Positions 161 through 8,278 of a DNA stretch of 42,142 bases are shown piece after piece. The stretch spans positions 1 through 42,142 of the forward strand of contig CAMBZX010000006.1 of assembly GCA_945872185.1 (NCBI GenBank). The letters are read 5' to 3'. Both the position numbers and the translations under genes were made by a program. The notes beneath the pieces were generated by a model. It was given only the letters and a program-made list of their open reading frames with translations. It was not told the DNA's origin and ran no database searches. Within the stretch, counting starts at the first letter, position 1, and the number at the start of each line of letters is the position of its first letter. The DNA comes from Synechococcus sp. UW140. Its GTDB lineage: Bacteria > Cyanobacteriota > Cyanobacteriia > PCC-6307 > Cyanobiaceae.

Positions 161-1267
161 TCATGAAGCAGGGGCCTCGACCAGGGCAGCGCGAGCCCAA
201 GCCCTGCAGCCGGCCGTAGCCTTTGCGAGCACCTCACGGGCTGCTGCAAGGGCTGGACGGTCGAGATGGTGCGGCAGCGGGGCTGGGCACCCGAGGTGGC
301 CTGAGCCAGCCATGGCCGCCAGCAACAGCAAACGGCCACCGCTCTCGCCCCAGGAGGGCTGGCTCAGCGATGGCCGCCAGGTGCTCCACTTCCGGCCGAG
401 CCGCTGGGTGTCCACCGGCCTGCGCCAGGGCAGGTTCAGGTCCAGCTGCAGGGCGGCGTAGCGGTTGGCCAGCAGCAGTTGCACGTCCTCCAGCGCCAGG
501 GGCTGAAGCACCAGCGGATCACTGAACACCGAGCGGATCTGGGTGTGGGTCTGCACCACCGTCCGCACCGCGTCTGTGGTGCCCACCACGATCAGGTGCA
601 GGCCATCGAGCAAGAGGGCCTGATCGCGGATGCTGCGCAACAGATCGGCGGCACGGTCGGCAGCGGCCTCGCTGAGGTTCTCGAGGTTGTTGAGGTGCAG
701 CACCAGGCCCTGGGCCCCCTGCTCCTGGGCATAGGCCAGCAGGTCCCGCAGCACCCGCGGTCCATCGAGCACCAGGGCGCTGGGAGGTGTTGACACGCTT
801 TCTGTCCGCGTGCCGCCTGCGCCAAAGCCCAAGGCCGACGCCGAAAAGCCCCCACCCCGCAGCCGAAAACTGCGCACCAGCTGCTGGGCGGCCTCCACCG
901 CTGGCCCGGCCGCGGTGGGGTAACTGGCCAGCACTGCGTCGAAGGCACCATGGAGTAGCCGGCCCAGCAGGTCTTCTGAGCTGCCTTCACTGCCCAGCGA
1001 AAGAATCTCGGCGGAGGTCCAGTAACCCGCCTCACGGGCATCGGCCTTCACCGCCTGCACCAGGGTGGTCTTGCCGATGCCGGGCCTGCCGGCCAGAGCC
1101 TGTCTGGAGCTGCGGCTGCTGCCAATGGTGGTGAGCAGCAGTTGCCGCTCCCCCTGCCGGCCCACGAAGAGACTCAGCGGCGTGGCCTCAGCGTCAGAGC
1201 GCAGCGTGGCCTGGAAGTAGGGGGAGGAACGCAGGTTGTAGAGCCCCCAGAGGTTCGGCAGCGCCAT
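161..1267 (-). CDS. AAA family ATPase (Orc1/STAND-like P-loop protein)
   Basis: The start is placed at the ATG at 1267; an open frame continues upstream but overlaps the divergent nuclease gene antisense. The 368 aa product has an N-terminal segment ending in a VGRQ motif typical of Orc1-like/AAA_16 ATPases, a Walker A motif GRPGIGKTTL near residue 65, a hydrophobic Walker B-like strand (GLVLHLNN), and a later strand (LHLIVVGTTD) fitting sensor 1. Such proteins couple ATP hydrolysis to DNA or effector remodelling, but the target here is unknown. The last 85 or so residues after LDLNLPW look unlike a folded winged helix and may be degenerate or frameshifted. It is divergent from the VRR-NUC gene, with 57 bases between the two start codons. 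Confidence 0.68.
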   Translation of the reverse strand: MALPNLWGLYNLRSSPYFQATLRSDAEATPLSLFVGRQGERQLLLTTIGSSRSSRQALAGRPGIGKTTLVQAVKADAREAGYWTSAEILSLGSEGSSEDLLGRLLHGAFDAVLASYPTAAGPAVEAAQQLVRSFRLRGGGFSASALGFGAGGTRTESVSTPPSALVLDGPRVLRDLLAYAQEQGAQGLVLHLNNLENLSEAAADRAADLLRSIRDQALLLDGLHLIVVGTTDAVRTVVQTHTQIRSVFSDPLVLQPLALEDVQLLLANRYAALQLDLNLPWRRPVDTQRLGRKWSTWRPSLSQPSWGESGGRLLLLAAMAGSGHLGCPAPLPHHLDRPALAAAREVLAKATAGCRAWARAALVEAPAS

Positions 1268-1324: not shown

Positions 1325-1702
1325 ATGGCCTCCTCCCCCAGCGAACACGAGATCCAGCAGCGCATCCGCCTGGCCTGCGGCCGCGGACCGGTGCGGCTCT
1401 GGCGAAACAACACCGGCGCCCTGGTCGACCAGCAGGGTCGCTTCGTGCGCTTCGGGCTGTGCAAGGGCAGCAGCGACCTGATCGGTCTGCGCTCGCTGGA
1501 GATCACGCCTGAGCTGGTCGGCCAGCGGCTCGCCCAGTTCGTCGCCCTGGAGATCAAGACGGGCTCCGGAACAGTCAGCCCTGAGCAGCGGGCCTTTCTG
1601 AAGTTGGTGCAGCAGCTGGGCGGGGTGGGGGCGGTCTGCCGCTCGATTGCACAGGCCCAGGCGGTTCTGGCCCTGGATCCCATGGACGGGTCGGGCCAAT
1701 GA
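1325..1702 (+). CDS. VRR-NUC domain nuclease
   Basis: This 125 aa protein fits the VRR-NUC family of stand-alone PD-(D/E)XK nucleases found in phages and mobile elements, where they act as endonucleases or structure-specific resolvases. Visible signature: an N-terminal helix with E-x-x-I-Q, the segment LWRNNTGA, KGSSDLIGL with the catalytic-type Asp, and FVALEIKTGSGTVSPEQ, which holds the E-x-K pair, followed by the usual QxxFL helix. The ATG at 1325 gives the family's normal N-terminus, although its AGGAGG (1318-1323) is unusually close, one base away. Its stop overlaps the start of the next small gene (ATGA), suggesting coupled translation. Confidence 0.82.
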   Translation: MASSPSEHEIQQRIRLACGRGPVRLWRNNTGALVDQQGRFVRFGLCKGSSDLIGLRSLEITPELVGQRLAQFVALEIKTGSGTVSPEQRAFLKLVQQLGGVGAVCRSIAQAQAVLALDPMDGSGQ

Positions 1703-2635: not shown

Positions 2636-2774
2636 ATGAAGACACGTTGGGCGCTGAGCTCAGAACGGGCGCCTATTGGGCCTATGGCGACGCCGAGCCA
2701 TTCAAGGGCTTGCGCCTAGCGTCAGCTAGCCGCTAAGCTCAGGCCAGCGGGCACAAGCCCGGCTCTCAGTTGCC

Positions 2775-3500
2775 ATGACTCAACCCCTCGCACGCGCAGG
2801 CGTGCCAACCGACGCTCTTGAGCTGCTCGACGAAAAGGGCAGCGCCGAGCGCGCTCTCACCGCCGCCCTGGCCTCCTTCCAGGAACAGGTGCAGGCCGTT
2901 CCATCCCTTGATTTGGCTGCCGTGGTCGAAGCAGCCAGACCAGCCTTTGCTTCAGGCATCGCCTTCAGTGCCCAATTGGTTGACATCCGCGGCCGCAACA
3001 AGTTGCGCGTCACCGTGATGCATGCCGGCGGTGCTGAGGTCAGCAGCGAGGAGTGGGCCGACCAGGTCGACGACTTGTTGCAGGCTTCCGGCTGGATGCT
3101 GGCCATGTTGCTGGGCATTCCTTTGACCAGACAGGCTTTGCCTGTAGAGCCCGAGAAGAAGGGGGCGAGAAGCCTCGCAATCGTCGTGCATCCTGATGCT
3201 CCGACTGGGCCTGGGTCCAGCGAGGAGGAAGGGGCTGTTCCGGCGGCTGACATCGATGTCGCCCTAGAGCCGCTCACGCCCCAGGAGATCGAGGCCACCC
3301 ACCAGCGGATCCTCGCCCTGCCCCAGGCCGCTCGCCAGGAGCTGACCAAGTCGTTCCGCGAGCACTTTCAGGTGCCGCGCAATGCCCGCTCCATCGGTGA
3401 TCGCATCACCCAGCACCAGCACGCCGCCTTCATCGATCACTTCCTTGAGGAGTGCGAAGAACAGGGCCTCAATGGCGCCGCGGCGCCTGCAGAGCCATGA
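2775..3500 (+). CDS. Unknown 241 aa protein, first gene of overlapping block
   Basis: The product starts at ATG 2775 and has no motif I recognise. It can be divided into an N-terminal helical region (1-60), a central region with beta-strand character (FSAQLVDIRGRNKLRVTVM, about 70-90), an acidic low-complexity linker (about 145-165) and a C-terminal helical region with many Gln and His (about 170-235). The C-terminal pattern loosely recalls the helical tails of phage single-strand annealing proteins, but this is weak. Its TGA overlaps the ATG of the next gene. Its place directly upstream of a ssDNA-binding protein makes a recombination or replication role a reasonable guess. Confidence 0.6.
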   Translation: MTQPLARAGVPTDALELLDEKGSAERALTAALASFQEQVQAVPSLDLAAVVEAARPAFASGIAFSAQLVDIRGRNKLRVTVMHAGGAEVSSEEWADQVDDLLQASGWMLAMLLGIPLTRQALPVEPEKKGARSLAIVVHPDAPTGPGSSEEEGAVPAADIDVALEPLTPQEIEATHQRILALPQAARQELTKSFREHFQVPRNARSIGDRITQHQHAAFIDHFLEECEEQGLNGAAAPAEP

Positions 3501-3733
3501 AAGGACTTCGTCGCTACGGCGAGCAGCCCCGCTCCCAGGCCGGCCGCCACTTCATCCAGACCCAGGTGCGCACCGATGTGTACCTGCGGGTCCGAGAGGT
3601 GATGGAGCGCCACAACCTCTCCGCCAGCGGAGCAGTGCATCACCTGCTGCGTGAGCGCTTTGGTTTGCCGCCCCTTCCCCCTTTCGATCAACAGCCCATT
3701 CCCACCGTTCACCCCGATTCAACCCATGGCTAA
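3497..3733 (+). CDS. Small ribbon-helix-helix-like protein, 78 aa
   Basis: The ATG at 3497 overlaps the stop of the upstream gene (ATGA), which decides the start. The N-terminal two thirds contain FIQTQVRTDVYLRVREVMERHNLSASGAVHHLLRERFG, split here as a beta strand (TQVRTDVY) followed by two helices, the arrangement of MetJ/Arc-type ribbon-helix-helix DNA-binding proteins. The C-terminus is proline-rich. It overlaps the next gene by 8 bases. A role as autoregulator of the block is likely but not shown. Confidence 0.6.
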   Translation: MKGLRRYGEQPRSQAGRHFIQTQVRTDVYLRVREVMERHNLSASGAVHHLLRERFGLPPLPPFDQQPIPTVHPDSTHG

Positions 3734-4319
3734 GGACATTTTTCGCAGCCCCCTCGCCGAAGTGCGCTGGGCCCACTTGATCACCCCCCGGCACCAGCTC
3801 GACAAGAGCAAACCCAAGGCCTGGACGGCCGATCTGCTGCTTCCCAACAGCGATGACAAGGCCCAATCCTTCCTGCTGGCGATGGAGGACCAGTTCATCG
3901 CTCTGCACGGCAGCCGCAAGCGCCGGGCCGAGAAGGGCTTCCCCTGGAAGCCCGACAAGGAGAAGCCCAGCGAGATCACCGTGCTGCGCTTCAAGGTGCC
4001 GCAGTTCCAGCGGCGCGACGGCTCCCTTTCCGAGGGGCCGCGCATCGTCGATGCCAAGAAGCAGCCCTGGGATGGGGCCGCCATCGGCAACGGCTCGAAG
4101 GTGATCGTCGCCTTCGACATCTACGACTGGGACGGGGAAAATGGCTGCGGCATGACCTTCCAGCCGCGTGCCGTTCAGGTCGTGGAGTTCGTGCCCTACG
4201 AACAGGTCGACCCCACCGATGGCTTCGAGGAGGTCGATGGATACACCACCGGTAGAGCCACAGAGGCCGGAAGCTCTGCGGGTTGGGTCATGGATGACGA
4301 CGACGAGGCCCCCTTCTGA
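3726..4319 (+). CDS. Phage-type ssDNA-binding protein (Enc34/T7 gp2.5-like)
   Basis: The 197 aa product has the features of phage ssDNA-binding proteins of the Enc34 (DUF2815) / gp2.5 type: an OB-fold-like series of strands, including VIVAFDIYDWDGENGCGMTF and AVQVVEFVPY near residues 120-160, many basic and aromatic residues, and a very acidic C-terminus ending DDDDEAPF. That tip matches the conserved SSB tail (acidic residues then hydrophobic-Pro-Phe) that recruits partner proteins. It would coat ssDNA during replication or recombination of the element. ATG 3726 lies inside the end of the preceding gene, and its stop overlaps the next start (TGATG at 4317-4321). The family call is from sequence character, not a search. 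Confidence 0.75.
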   Translation: MAKDIFRSPLAEVRWAHLITPRHQLDKSKPKAWTADLLLPNSDDKAQSFLLAMEDQFIALHGSRKRRAEKGFPWKPDKEKPSEITVLRFKVPQFQRRDGSLSEGPRIVDAKKQPWDGAAIGNGSKVIVAFDIYDWDGENGCGMTFQPRAVQVVEFVPYEQVDPTDGFEEVDGYTTGRATEAGSSAGWVMDDDDEAPF

Positions 4320-4603
4320 TGGCCTCGCCACATGTGCGCAGCAACGGGGCCGTCGGGCCCCGTCCCCAGTTGCCTGCCTTCTGCCGGAACCGCCGGCCGG
4401 TCGTCATGGTCACGGCCACCAGCCTGGCTTGCCTGCGCGGCCTGGTGCTGCTGGGGCTGGCGTTTCAGCTCAGCACCCTGCTGCTCGTGCTCGTCGGTCC
4501 CGTGCCGCCACGGCCGGTGACCAGCACCAATACCGTCTTCCGCCCCGATGCCGGCAGTGATGCCGGTGAGCTCCAACCCGTCACACCGTTTTCAGACCGA
4601 TGA
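4319..4603 (+). CDS. Small single-pass membrane protein, 94 aa
   Basis: The start overlaps the upstream TGA by one base. Residues 1-30 are basic (RNRRP just before the membrane part), residues about 36-61 are a clear hydrophobic segment (Leu, Val, Ala), and the remainder is polar with several Pro and Thr. This predicts one membrane span with the basic end inside the cell. No family is recognised. A lone membrane protein within a replication-type block could be an exclusion or lysis factor, but nothing in the sequence shows this. Its stop overlaps the KilA-N gene start (ATGA). Confidence 0.5.
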   Translation: MASPHVRSNGAVGPRPQLPAFCRNRRPVVMVTATSLACLRGLVLLGLAFQLSTLLLVLVGPVPPRPVTSTNTVFRPDAGSDAGELQPVTPFSDR

Positions 4604-5403
4604 ACACCACGACGACGTCATCCCCTTTCGCTGCACCTGTCGCCTCGATGAATCACCCTGCTCTGGTCTCCCGCTCCTGGAACGGCACGCCGATCTCTCG
4701 GCGCACCGCCGACGGCTACGTCAATGCCACGGCCATGTGCAAGGCCAACAACAAGAGGTGGTCTGACTACCGCGAGTCGGACCGGTGCCAGCTCTACCTG
4801 GAAGCTCTGTCCCAAACAACGGAAATTCCGGTGTTTGATCTGATCCAGTCCCGTCAGGGGCACGGTGGTGGGACCTGGGTCCATCCCCAGGTCGCAGTCG
4901 ACCTGGCCCGCTGGATCAGCGCACCGTTCGCGGTCTGGATGGACGGCTGGTTCTTGGAGAGCGTCCAGCAAGCGCAAACGGCACCGATGGAGACGACTGC
5001 TGCGCCCCGGCTCCGGGAAGCCGAGGTGATCGCCCTGGTGGAACGCAGCATCGTCGTGTTCGAGCAGCTCGGCGGCCTGGATGAACGCGATCAGCTCCTG
5101 TTCAAGGACATTGTGCGCAGCAACCTGCTCACTGCGAGCTCGGGAATGCTGCCCGGTGCCCCGACTGACGAGGAGCTCACCTTGGGGGATGCCTGGCTGG
5201 AGGTGTTCCAGCAAGTGCTGCCGCGCAGCCAGTTCTGCGCAGCCGGCAAGCTCGTGGCCAGGGCTTACCGCGAGGAGTTCGACGAAGAACCCCCTCGTCG
5301 CCAACAGTTTGTGGACGGGGCCCCGCGCCAGGTCAAGAGCTATCGCCGCTCCTGGTTGATCGACACCCTCAAGCGCATCCGCGCTCAGCTGGCAGGAGGC
5401 TGA
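4600..5403 (+). CDS. KilA-N domain protein
   Basis: The 267 aa product contains a KilA-N DNA-binding domain at about residues 25-130. Hallmarks seen are DGYVNATAMCKANNKRWSDY (about 46-65), HGGGTWVHPQVAVDLARWIS (about 95-114) and the following FAVWMDGWF helix. KilA-N proteins occur in large DNA phages and mobile elements, often as regulators or antirepressors. The C-terminal half (about 140-267) is helical, lists toward acidic residues and ends with a basic RRSWLIDTLKRIRAQL helix; I do not recognise it. The gene overlaps its neighbours on both sides and is very probably co-transcribed with the SSB gene. Confidence 0.85.
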   Translation: MNTTTTSSPFAAPVASMNHPALVSRSWNGTPISRRTADGYVNATAMCKANNKRWSDYRESDRCQLYLEALSQTTEIPVFDLIQSRQGHGGGTWVHPQVAVDLARWISAPFAVWMDGWFLESVQQAQTAPMETTAAPRLREAEVIALVERSIVVFEQLGGLDERDQLLFKDIVRSNLLTASSGMLPGAPTDEELTLGDAWLEVFQQVLPRSQFCAAGKLVARAYREEFDEEPPRRQQFVDGAPRQVKSYRRSWLIDTLKRIRAQLAGG

Positions 5404-5633
5404 TGGACACGTCGACAACGTCATCCCGCCAGCGGGTCTGGGTCACAACGGCAGAAGCGTGCGCAGCTCTGGGGATGAGCCGGGAAACCCTCCGCCAGCT
5501 ACGGCTGCGGGGGGTGCTCACCCCGGGGAAGCACTACCGACGCTGGGGCTGCACCCAGGGCCGGGGGCCGCTGCAGTGGCACCTGGAGAACGTGGAGGCC
5601 ACGATCACTGGGTGGAGCCGGCGGCACTTGTAG
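5403..5633 (+). CDS. Excisionase-like HTH protein, 76 aa
   Basis: The ATG overlaps the KilA-N stop by one base (TGATG), with AGGAGG at 5394-5399. The product has a MerR/excisionase-type winged helix: VTTAEACAALGMSRETLRQL (about residues 14-33), then a wing with Gly and Lys residues and a short aromatic stretch, GPLQWHLENVEATI. Excisionases (Xis) bend DNA at att sites to steer a tyrosine recombinase toward excision. A recombinase gene lies about 1.2 kb downstream on the other strand, which supports that role. It could instead be a plain transcription regulator. Confidence 0.7.
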   Translation: MDTSTTSSRQRVWVTTAEACAALGMSRETLRQLRLRGVLTPGKHYRRWGCTQGRGPLQWHLENVEATITGWSRRHL

Positions 5634-5776: not shown

Positions 5777-6256
5777 TTGCCCGTGGCCGTGGCTCTCTCC
5801 AGCTCCATTGAGCCCGTGGTCCCCACGGCTGAGGCGGCTGAGGCCGCGGGAGCGAGCTTGCGCGATCTCGCCTGTTTCCGTGCCAGCCATGGTCTGCGTC
5901 AAGCCAGCCTCTCCCTCGATCTGGAAGACGGCCAGCGCGCATCCATTCCGATCCCGGCTGCGGTGTTGGAGTTGCTGCAGGGAATCCTGGCGCAGATGGC
6001 CCAGGGCAATGCTGTGACGCTGGTGCCGGTGCACGCCGAGCTCACGACCCAGCAGGCCGCTGATCTGCTGAACGTGTCGCGGCCCTTCCTGATCGAGCGG
6101 CTGACGCAAGGGGAGATGCCCTTCCGCAAGGTCGGAACCCACCGGCGCATTCGCCTGGCCGACTTGATGGCCTACAAGCACGCCATCGACCAGCAGCGTG
6201 CCGCGGCCCTCGACGAGTTGGCTGCCCAGGCCCAGGAGCTGGGCATGGGCTACTGA
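5777..6256 (+). CDS. HTH antitoxin of a PIN toxin pair (start uncertain)
   Basis: The conserved part of this roughly 159 aa protein has an excisionase-type helix-turn-helix near its C-terminus: ELTTQQAADLLNVSRPFLIERL, then a wing MPFRKVGTHRRIRLADL, and the tail AAQAQELGMGY. Proteins of this form are found directly upstream of PIN ribonuclease genes as antitoxins. No ATG is available near the expected N-terminus; I chose TTG 5777 because GGGAGGT lies at 5758-5764. GTG codons at 5783 and 5789 are alternatives. The toxin start follows one base after the stop. The antitoxin would bind both its operator and the toxin. Confidence 0.75.
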   Translation: MPVAVALSSSIEPVVPTAEAAEAAGASLRDLACFRASHGLRQASLSLDLEDGQRASIPIPAAVLELLQGILAQMAQGNAVTLVPVHAELTTQQAADLLNVSRPFLIERLTQGEMPFRKVGTHRRIRLADLMAYKHAIDQQRAAALDELAAQAQELGMGY

Positions 6257-6257
6257 G

Positions 6258-6827
6258 GTGAATCGCTTCACCGCCGTCTACGACGCTTGCGTTCTCTATC
6301 CGGCTCCACTCCGCGATCTGCTGATGCGCCTGGCACTCACGGATCTCTACCGGGCCCGCTGGAGTGACCAGATTCACCAGGAGTGGATCACGGCCGTGCT
6401 GCGGAACCGGCCTGATCTCTCCAGAGCGCAGCTAGAGCGCACCCGCTCACTGATGAATGCTCACTTGCGTGATGCGCTGGTGGATGGCCATCAGAGCCTG
6501 ATTCCAGCCCTGGAGTTACCAGATCCGGATGACCGCCATGTTCTGGCTGCCGCCATCAAGTGCGGGGCCGATCTGATCCTCACCTTCAACCTGGATGATT
6601 TCCCAGAGCACGCCCTGGCGGGCTACGGCCTTGGCGCATGTCATCCCGATCTGTTTCTGGTGGATCAGCTGAACCTGGATGCCGAACGGGTCTGCACGGC
6701 GATGCGGCAGCACCGGGCCAGCCTGAAGAACCCACCCAAGACAGTCGAGGAGTACCTGGTAACCCTGAAGGAACAAGGGTTGAGCAGGTTCTCGCAGGCC
6801 GTGCGGCACTACGCCGCTGAGCTCTGA
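6258..6827 (+). CDS. PIN domain toxin (VapC-like ribonuclease)
   Basis: The 189 aa product begins with GTG at 6258, one base after the antitoxin stop. It has the PIN acidic cluster: Asp9 in VYDACVLYP, Glu42 (HQEW), Asp89/91/92 in LPDPDDRHVLAA, and Asp113 in TFNLDDFP. These residues hold the metal ions of a ribonuclease active site. The ending (SLKNPPKTVEEYL then LEQ/FSQAVRHYAAEL-type helices) matches the larger PIN proteins paired with HTH antitoxins in bacteria. The pair probably stabilises the element. The last 19 bases overlap the 3' end of the integrase gene on the other strand. Confidence 0.85.
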   Translation: MNRFTAVYDACVLYPAPLRDLLMRLALTDLYRARWSDQIHQEWITAVLRNRPDLSRAQLERTRSLMNAHLRDALVDGHQSLIPALELPDPDDRHVLAAAIKCGADLILTFNLDDFPEHALAGYGLGACHPDLFLVDQLNLDAERVCTAMRQHRASLKNPPKTVEEYLVTLKEQGLSRFSQAVRHYAAEL

Positions 6828-8080
6828 ACGCGAACAGACCCCTGGCCTAACCGCCGCTCTGCCTTGGCGAACGCGTCATCCACCACGTCGTCCCCACACC
6901 AGCGGCTATAAGCCGTCAAGTGGGTCTGCACGCTGTGGCCCATCGCCGCGGCCACCACCTTGGGAGGCAGGTCGCAGATCACGTGGGCCCGATGGGCGTA
7001 GCCGTGCCGGCAGGAGTAGGGCACGAGCTTCTCGCCTTTGGTCTCGTACTCCTGCCGGAGCTTGTTCCAGAGAGGACGCCGGTGCAGATACTGCCTGATG
7101 TCGTTGCCGCCAAAGCCAGCACGCATCGGCGGTAGGTCGTCCGGGGAGAACCGGTCCGCCAGCTGCCAGTCAGCTGCCCAGTCATCGCAGGGCAGCAGTC
7201 GCAGGGCGCGGGGCTTGGTCTTGCCGCGGGAGGCCACCTTTTCATAGGTGCACCACAGCCGCCCGTCTCTCAGCTGCAGGTGCTGCAGCTCCTCAGGGCG
7301 AAGGCCATAGGCGGCCATCAGCTGGAAGCCCAGACGCCAGCGCGGATCGGGCAGGGCGCGGTCCAGGGCCAGGATGTCTTCCACCTCCAGGGGAGTGGTG
7401 ACAGCTTTCGCGGTCCGAGACCGCCCCACGAACGGACTCAGGTCAGTCGGTGGCTCCCAGCTGGTGGCGGTCAGCTGGCCTTGGGTCACTGCCCAGCGAA
7501 GCAGGGCTGAGGTGGCTTGCATCTGGATCTGCCGGGTTCGCCCACCTGGTTTGTCCGCCCAGTGCAGGGTCAGTCGGTCAAGCAGTTGGCTGGCGCTTCG
7601 TGGCGGTTGACGGGCCGTCAGCGCTTCCAGCACCAGCTTCATGTGGTGGCGGTGCACCCGGGTCCATGTCGATTCCTTGATTTCGCCGCTGCGGATCTTG
7701 TACTCGCGATAGCGCTCTATCAGAGCATTCCAGTCAGTTAGCGGGACAAGAGCATCCTTGCCATTGGCATTAGGGCTGCCATTGATGCCCTCCGGAGGAG
7801 AGATTGTGATCCTCTTTGCCGCCAGGTCGGGTTCTATGCCGCTGCTGAAATCGTCGTAGATCTTGCAAACCACTTCGCCAATCTTCTTGGCATTGTCGAA
7901 GTGCCATGGGATTGGAAGTTGCAATTGATGGCGCTTGCCACCGCCCGCTTTGGCCGTGATGTTGAGTCGGGTGAAGCCTCGGTGCTCAGTAAGAGCCCAG
8001 CCCCTTGGACATCCCCTGCGGGACAAGGCATGAGCGGTTTCGACACGGATGGCGATCTCCCAGGGGGCTGCCTCAGCCAT
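6809..8080 (-). CDS. Tyrosine recombinase / phage-type integrase
   Basis: The 423 aa product is a site-specific recombinase. The N-terminal 110 residues fit an arm-binding region, about 115-215 the core-binding SAM-like helices, and about 225-410 the catalytic domain. Visible catalytic residues are Arg261 (AAYGLRPEEL), Arg358 in YSCRHGYAHR, His382 (MGHSVQTHL) and Tyr391 (TAYSRW). The first His of the usual H-x-x-R box is Tyr355 here, an uncommon but tolerated change. The gene starts about 130 bases from the tRNA-Gly 3' end and points away from it. It would integrate the element at that tRNA. A tandem 12-base repeat sits immediately before the start codon. Confidence 0.9.
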   Translation of the reverse strand: MAEAAPWEIAIRVETAHALSRRGCPRGWALTEHRGFTRLNITAKAGGGKRHQLQLPIPWHFDNAKKIGEVVCKIYDDFSSGIEPDLAAKRITISPPEGINGSPNANGKDALVPLTDWNALIERYREYKIRSGEIKESTWTRVHRHHMKLVLEALTARQPPRSASQLLDRLTLHWADKPGGRTRQIQMQATSALLRWAVTQGQLTATSWEPPTDLSPFVGRSRTAKAVTTPLEVEDILALDRALPDPRWRLGFQLMAAYGLRPEELQHLQLRDGRLWCTYEKVASRGKTKPRALRLLPCDDWAADWQLADRFSPDDLPPMRAGFGGNDIRQYLHRRPLWNKLRQEYETKGEKLVPYSCRHGYAHRAHVICDLPPKVVAAAMGHSVQTHLTAYSRWCGDDVVDDAFAKAERRLGQGSVRVQSSAA

Positions 8081-8178: not shown

Positions 8179-8206
8179 TCGGGAGATTTCTCAGGTCTGG
8201 ACTGAA

Positions 8207-8278
8207 AGCGGATGACCGGGCTCGAACCGGCGACGTTCAGCTTGGGAAGCTGACATTCTACCACTGAATTACATCCGC
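8207..8278 (-). tRNA. tRNA-Gly (anticodon CCC)
   Basis: On the minus strand a full cloverleaf can be read: acceptor GCGGATG/CATCCGC, D stem ATTC/GAAT, anticodon stem TCAGC/GCTGA enclosing the loop TTCCCAA (anticodon CCC), and T arm GCCGG-TTCGAGC-CCGGT. The discriminator base is U, and CCA is not encoded. It reads GGG codons. Its 3' half is the likely attachment site of the element to the left, because the integrase gene lies immediately beyond the 3' end. Confidence 0.95.

Follow-up and report, generated by a model that had tools for sequence, protein, structure and literature searches.

Six genes at positions 2775-5633 of a contig from the cyanobacterium Synechococcus sp. UW140 (CAMBZX010000006.1, 42,142 nucleotides; this whole stretch of DNA is referred to as the window) overlap end to start, which raises the question whether they form one coupled block and what such a block would do. 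The initial annotation had proposed that they are translated together and share one task, such as excision and replication of a mobile element. With the gene ends taken from the sequence, the overlaps are 4, 8, 1, 4 and 1 bases and the joints, in the order g1 to g6, are ATGA (4), 8 bases, TGATG (1), ATGA (4) and TGATG (1), precisely as annotated. All six genes lie on the plus strand: g1 (2775-3500, 241 aa), by predicted fold an ERF-like annealing protein; g2 (3497-3733, 78 aa), ribbon-helix-helix-like by eye; g3 (3726-4319, 197 aa), a T7 gp2.5-like single-stranded-DNA-binding protein (SSB) with an acidic C-terminal tail; g4 (4319-4603, 94 aa), a protein with one transmembrane (TM) segment; g5 (4600-5403, 267 aa), a KilA-N protein in what is shown below to be a cassette slot; and g6 (5403-5633, 76 aa), an excisionase-like (xis) HTH_17 protein. 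The best explanation of the whole, roles included, is that the block serves a phage-derived integrative element as its early operon, a reading that we consider rather probable.

Overlapping genes are not rare in these elements. In three complete relatives of the element, 24 of 123 same-strand neighbours away from the block overlap (12 by 4 bases and 7 by 1), and in the window's host part 1 of 19 does; these base rates use gene starts from a simple in-house caller. A further ATGA overlap, between a VRR-NUC gene and a 59-aa open reading frame at 1699, lies upstream of the block, which is itself set off from the preceding 237-aa gene (1922-2635) by a true gap of 139 bp. Against the base rate, five consecutive overlaps are unusual, and alone not decisive. 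Unlike the base rate, conservation of the joints is decisive for the reality of the block. Joints were read in the window and in loci L040-L105, copies with identical SSB genes being counted once (7 dropped); the window and L040-L091 make up the close family, L092-L105 the distant loci. Among readable close copies the g1/g2 joint is -4 in 38 of 39 (exception L073, +75), the g2/g3 joint -8 in 38 of 39 (again L073, -55) and the g3/g4 joint -1 in 40 of 41 (exception L069, -86). The joint between g4 and the slot gene is -4 in 34 of 39 close copies (KilA-N 20/21, Bro-N 14/18), and that between the slot gene and g6 is -1 in 32 of 38 (KilA-N 19/22, Bro-N 13/16). In the distant loci g1/g2 is -4 in 0 of 10 and g2/g3 is -8 in 2 of 11. 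Purifying selection acts on g2, g3, g5 and g6 (omega, the ratio of nonsynonymous to synonymous rates, 0.13-0.24; 0.20 for g2). The initial annotation had suggested a search for the same gene order in other cyanobacterial islands, scattered homologues with no conserved neighbourhood being the outcome that would speak against a common block; such scatter was looked for, and the order was conserved in the copies examined.

The position of g5 proved to be exchangeable. Its annotation as KilA-N was confirmed by PF04383 (E 1e-20; 73.9 bits against a cut-off of 23.8). Among 48 distinct close copies the slot holds KilA-N in 22 and Bro-N in 18, with neither seen in 8; where both matched, the higher identity decided, and some of the 8 copies end before the slot. 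The Bro-N gene in the copy of Cyanobium FGCU6 matches PF02498 (E 5e-24) and the antirepressor family phrog_130 (E 6e-55), and the other Bro-N copies were assigned by tblastn to this gene. The possibility that KilA-N and Bro-N are diverged relatives was rejected, there being no significant alignment; the -4 and -1 joints are nevertheless the rule with either gene. Mapped onto a tree of 41 SSB genes, the slot label (20 KilA-N, 15 Bro-N) changes 12 times, compared to a mean of 11.5 after shuffling, and 376 of 500 shuffles were as low; at least four changes rest on well-supported branches, and SSB recombination may add to the scatter. A tie of slot type to lineage was thus not seen, nor was one to gap class (Fisher p 1.0, near-copies included). 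Behind KilA-N, loci L041, L051 and L064 carry by eye a decayed TM tail and a Bro-N remnant, in L066 two KilA-N-type genes come after a Bro-N remnant, and in a diverged block of the IMG/VR record G066 TM overlaps xis directly and the slot is empty; the cassettes therefore seem, judged from these sequences, to be stacked, swapped and lost. A structure model of the KilA-N protein was poor (mean predicted local distance difference test, pLDDT, 60.6) and was not used. The G066 record (L139-L142) is a 76-kb contig on which one element lies beside a second, diverged one, whose block consists of helix-turn-helix (HTH), g1 and g2-like genes, followed by a gene for a 217-aa protein whose acidic tail resembles that of the SSB, and by TM and xis genes.

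The starts of the overlapping genes differ in their signals. A 4-base Shine-Dalgarno word was found at 0 of 44 SSB, 0 of 22 KilA-N and 0 of 18 Bro-N starts, and at 38 of 40 TM and 25 of 38 xis starts. Because the SSB and slot-gene starts have no such word, coupled translation by reinitiation would fit at these joints. The overlaps could instead reflect compact gene packing only, without functional coupling. Their frequency elsewhere in the elements is in line with this, as is the order g1, g2, g3 in distant phages, which is kept without the -4 joint; but mere packing accounts poorly for exact joint values that persist when an unrelated gene occupies the slot and for SSB and slot-gene starts that lack Shine-Dalgarno words, and we regard it as unlikely.

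The initial annotation listed g1 as unknown, and it still belongs to no family by sequence (Pfam, PHROG, NCBIfam). A search with its predicted fold matched 36 viral models at E<=1e-3; 19 of these bear the name ERF or essential recombination function, 1 is a recombination protein, 2 are uncharacterized and 14 are unnamed. The N-terminal domain is predicted with high pLDDT as helix-helix-three strands-helix, that is, a fold of the ERF/Rad52 type; whole-chain TM-scores are low (0.2-0.4), and Foldseek against the PDB gave nothing at E<=1e-3. In structural alignments with VIA-align, RAD52 scored Z 4.8, among the middling rows; these rows, with phage Gp77 (9y6u, Z 7.9) on top, are mostly double-stranded-RNA-binding domains, all below Z 8, and were not accepted as relatives. 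Overall, the models make g1 a likely divergent ERF-like annealing protein. A Rad52-family protein encoded at the element's far end (L120:5506-6351, minus strand, and relatives) has a C-terminal part in common with g1, which suggests a common partner. For the protein of the FGCU6 element, a two-sequence comparison of these C-terminal parts gave E 3e-14. For g3, annotated as SSB-like, the assignment became more precise: it matches phrog_112 over nearly its full length (E 7e-15) and the T7 gp2.5 structure 1je5 (E 0.0068), and the tails of its homologues are acidic and aromatic-ended (for example DDDDEAPF), so that by family and tail it is a gp2.5-like protein.

The small membrane protein had been regarded as unexpected in a DNA-processing block. 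It is a regular member, with one hydrophobic segment in 40 of 40 distinct intact copies. It also behaves like a coding gene: third codon positions are the most variable in its core, and each of the five alternative frames is interrupted by stops in 28 to 40 of 40 copies. With an omega of 0.68, g4 is the fastest-evolving gene of the block. Phage P22 also makes its presence less unexpected, since annotations there list small membrane or host-directed proteins with the early genes (kil and sieB; sieA by arc and ant). The excisionase-like label of g6 holds, with HTH_17 at 30.1 bits (cut-off 27); a match to Phage_AlpA of Pfam was not obtained.

Matches to the SSB were found in 11 of 60 genomes searched, the own genome included, all inside one of 24 genera; 40 loci are in named genomes and 26 in IMG/VR. 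A search of plasmids gave no match, and the matches in phages (14 records) are every one below 60% identity. Four freshwater siphophage-like IMG/VR contigs (G067, G072, G073, G074) share the order HTH-g1-SSB, mostly with g2. They differ in having other head genes, a recognised tail where scanned (G067) and a sigma factor after the SSB region in place of TM-slot-xis; no TM or slot gene was seen in these distant contigs, and a single xis-like protein lies away from the block in G073. Since the first part of the block occurs there without TM or slot gene, and since the slot gene is exchanged independently, the block is by gene content a junction of at least two sub-modules. The proposal of a single task thus stands in part: the content fits DNA processing and excision, and is better described as annealing recombination and replication plus an induction-and-excision switch.

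Upstream of g1, a promoter-like sequence TTGCGC-N18-TAAGCT (2710-2739, plus strand) was noted by eye and is conserved in most of 16 aligned copies with a long gap. It is followed by the palindrome CGGGC-N4-GCCCG (2748-2761), a candidate operator found no more than 140 nt upstream of g1 in 39 of 49 distinct loci; distant phages account for 8 of the 10 loci without it, and the loop bases are variable. A two-operon regulon with a shared operator was considered and dropped: two elements have another CGGGC-N4-GCCCG towards their far end, in a different context, two more have versions with one mismatch, and the remaining four stretches inspected have none. As an early operon, the block would be transcribed from the promoter-like site as a single messenger and read partly via coupled translation across the overlaps. 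Together with nucleases whose genes lie nearby, the ERF-like g1 and the gp2.5-like g3 would perform single-strand annealing and replication linked to recombination; the antirepressor-type slot protein, KilA-N here and Bro-N elsewhere, would lift repression, and the HTH_17 protein would turn the integrase towards excision. The product of g2 probably limits the operon via binding to the palindrome, as Arc limits ant in P22, and the host cell or competing phages are the probable target of the membrane protein g4.

The nearest functional counterparts are erf/xis and arc/ant of P22. There too, an annealing protein and an excisionase belong to the early genes, with erf, kil, xis and int sharing one strand in the annotation; immI (mnt, arc, ant, sieA) has an antirepressor beside a small repressor, arc and ant being annotated as neighbours. 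In contrast to P22, everything is here in one overlapping block together with an SSB, the slot holds KilA-N or Bro-N, and g1 is related to ERF by fold only.

Several observations weigh against the block as such an operon. The site at 2710-2739 is not called by a consensus promoter scan, and an RNA hairpin before g1, tried as a further signal, is no more stable than those of shuffled sequences. At the start of g1, the head of the block with no upstream overlap, the Shine-Dalgarno word is also missing (0 of 41), for which reason weak use of such words is an alternative to reinitiation. The ribbon-helix-helix label that the initial annotation had given g2 is an assignment by eye, with no significant match in Pfam, PHROG or NCBIfam. 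Sequence methods do not place g1 with ERF: a Pfam scan of 33 g1 members gave no ERF match, PF04404 was found in 0 of 3 carrier genomes (the E. coli control was positive), and hhalign against 8 ERF proteins gave E 0.61 (prob 0.1); because a sequence-profile match is absent, we speak of an ERF-like fold and not of an ERF member. Against a capsid-encoding satellite, capsid and primase genes were not found in the incomplete genome that holds the window; a 368-aa ATPase gene on the opposite strand adjoins VRR-NUC where FGCU6 has a helicase. Finally, some copies are broken (L069, L073, L074, L077).

The block is carried by an element found inserted at tRNA genes in freshwater relatives of Cyanobium/Synechococcus. 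The window makes up an entire contig of a draft genome (85.6% complete, 234 contigs), in which a tyrosine integrase gene (6809-8080, minus strand; phrog_1 E 1e-19) reads into the element from tRNA-Gly(CCC). A 47-bp attachment (att) repeat at 8206-8252, in the 3' end of this tRNA gene (8207-8278), has an exact copy at G000:C17:1627-1673, and the end of contig C17 encodes, by eye, a far-end gene of other copies; the window's element therefore appears to be split over contigs, and its capsid and primase part may be unassembled or lost. Copies between two tRNA-derived repeats span about 62 kb in Cyanobium FGCU6, 56 kb in Vulcanococcus Clear-D1 and 45 kb in Cyanobium FACHB-13342. Of 38 integrase matches in the window and L040-L091, 19 have a tRNA gene (Gly-CCC, Gly-TCC, Arg-TCT or Val-TAC) no more than 600 nt away, a count that includes near-copies and some matches at contig ends. 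Integrase, xis, SSB, g2, g1, the 237-aa gene, VRR-NUC, helicase, primase, exonuclease, terminase, portal and scaffold occur in 6 of 6 elements (three with both ends known), and 4 of the 6 also yielded a capsid gene. From this gene content the carrier is taken to be phage-derived, with head genes in complete relatives. These are PSS2-like: identities to cyanophage PSS2 are 42-46% for the major capsid protein, 33-36% for the large terminase subunit and 29-34% for the portal, and PSS2 homologues in complete relatives comprise terminase, sigma factor, portal, scaffold, capsid and endolysin.

Of the genes before the block, VRR-NUC (1325-1702, plus strand; PF08774 E 1.5e-6) and the 237-aa gene (plus strand) are kept in all six elements; the latter is HTH-like by eye and has no significant family match (Pfam, PHROG, NCBIfam). 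The 368-aa ATPase gene (161-1267, minus strand), at the contig edge, has weak BrxD-like matches. Between xis and the integrase, an HTH gene by eye (5783-6256) is followed directly by a PIN_3-domain gene (6258-6827); the two recur in several relatives and look by sequence like a toxin-antitoxin pair. Further pieces of related elements are present in the own genome, one (L038, G000:C147) with the end of a KilA-N gene followed by an integrase and one (L039, G000:C234) with parts of HTH, g1 and xis joined into a short fusion that resembles the relic of a deletion. In Vulcanococcus sp. Clear-D1 (G060:C18, L112-L117) two copies lie 56,093 bp apart and are identical over at least 40,412 bases, the result of a tandem insertion or of the assembly of an excised circle. 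The cargo region of the FGCU6 element (L119) encodes large helicase-like proteins and an 889-aa protein, presumably, by eye, a nitric-oxide-synthase-type fusion.

What kind of element the block serves bears on its role. It could be a temperate phage whose tail went unrecognised, or a prophage in decay, with the block as its ordinary early operon; we give this about an even chance. In agreement with it, the elements have an endolysin, a sigma factor, an integrase and head genes related to PSS2; the broken copies agree as well, as do the PSS2-like relic prophage islands described by Sullivan et al. (2009) in Synechococcus RS9917 (PMC2784084). Those islands and PSS2 share terminase, sigma factor, portal, scaffold, capsid and endolysin homologues with our elements, and because they were already described the kind of element is not wholly new. 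The common core of all six elements and the purifying selection argue against general decay, and the lack of recognised tail genes argues against a temperate phage. PSS2 has a tape measure, a long tail and an annotated RecT-like protein, none of which were matched in the elements: no protein of the six matches the PSS2 tape-measure genes at E<=1e-4 (PSS2 positions 1-100,000 of 107,530), and PHROG scans of selected proteins and of 64 of 68 listed leftover proteins of FACHB-13342 and Clear-D1 (four cargo-region proteins left out, 8 further genes outside the loci) recognised no tail tube or tape measure. The same scans gave fibre-like, endolysin-type and one baseplate-hub-type match, and the siphophage contig G067 was clearly positive for tape measure.

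Head genes with no recognised tape measure or tail tube would also suit a capsid-encoding satellite akin to the phage-inducible chromosomal islands (PICIs), which would have its own replication proteins and head and use a helper's tail, its slot proteins acting on repressors of the helper or of the element itself. The gene maps of the six elements follow the zone order integrase/HTH_17 - Bro-type gene - replication - late genes with an inward integrase, as given for gram-negative and helper-embedded PICIs in PMC10111431, where HTH_17 is also counted in the integration zone, the Bro zone is dynamic and capsid genes occur without tail genes. The elements differ from gram-negative PICIs in size (45-62 kb, compared to the 10-20 kb quoted in the same text), in encoding an endolysin, in the lack of an AlpA match for g6 and in their cyanobacterial hosts; the block runs opposite to the integrase and gene directions are mixed, and tail proteins may be unrecognised, since many late proteins have no family match and fibre-like and baseplate-hub-type proteins are present. 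The satellite explanation is possible, and we are inclined to doubt it. A deep-branching tyrosine recombinase is the hallmark of the tycheposons of Prochlorococcus. Like the present elements, tycheposons are tRNA-inserted, cargo-carrying picocyanobacterial elements with a tyrosine recombinase (PMC10872708); the head genes here are, by comparison, PSS2-like. Our literature search, to which most subscription papers were closed, found no paper on this element family.

With the block as an early operon, six genes gain testable roles, including a likely annealing protein that is invisible to sequence searches. The slot amounts to a natural swap experiment, in which one regulator is replaced by an unrelated one and the translational joints stay exact. 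Rather tentatively, the elements may be a family of 45-62 kb, tRNA-inserted, capsid-encoding and tail-less satellites of freshwater picocyanobacteria, in which one operon would join annealing recombination to excision and an antirepressor slot would swap KilA-N and Bro-N, or stand empty, at base-exact joints, perhaps tracking the repressors of helpers or rivals. If this is true, they would be a widespread cargo vehicle in freshwater picocyanobacteria, of a kind that, within the literature searched, has so far been reported in these hosts only as relic prophage.

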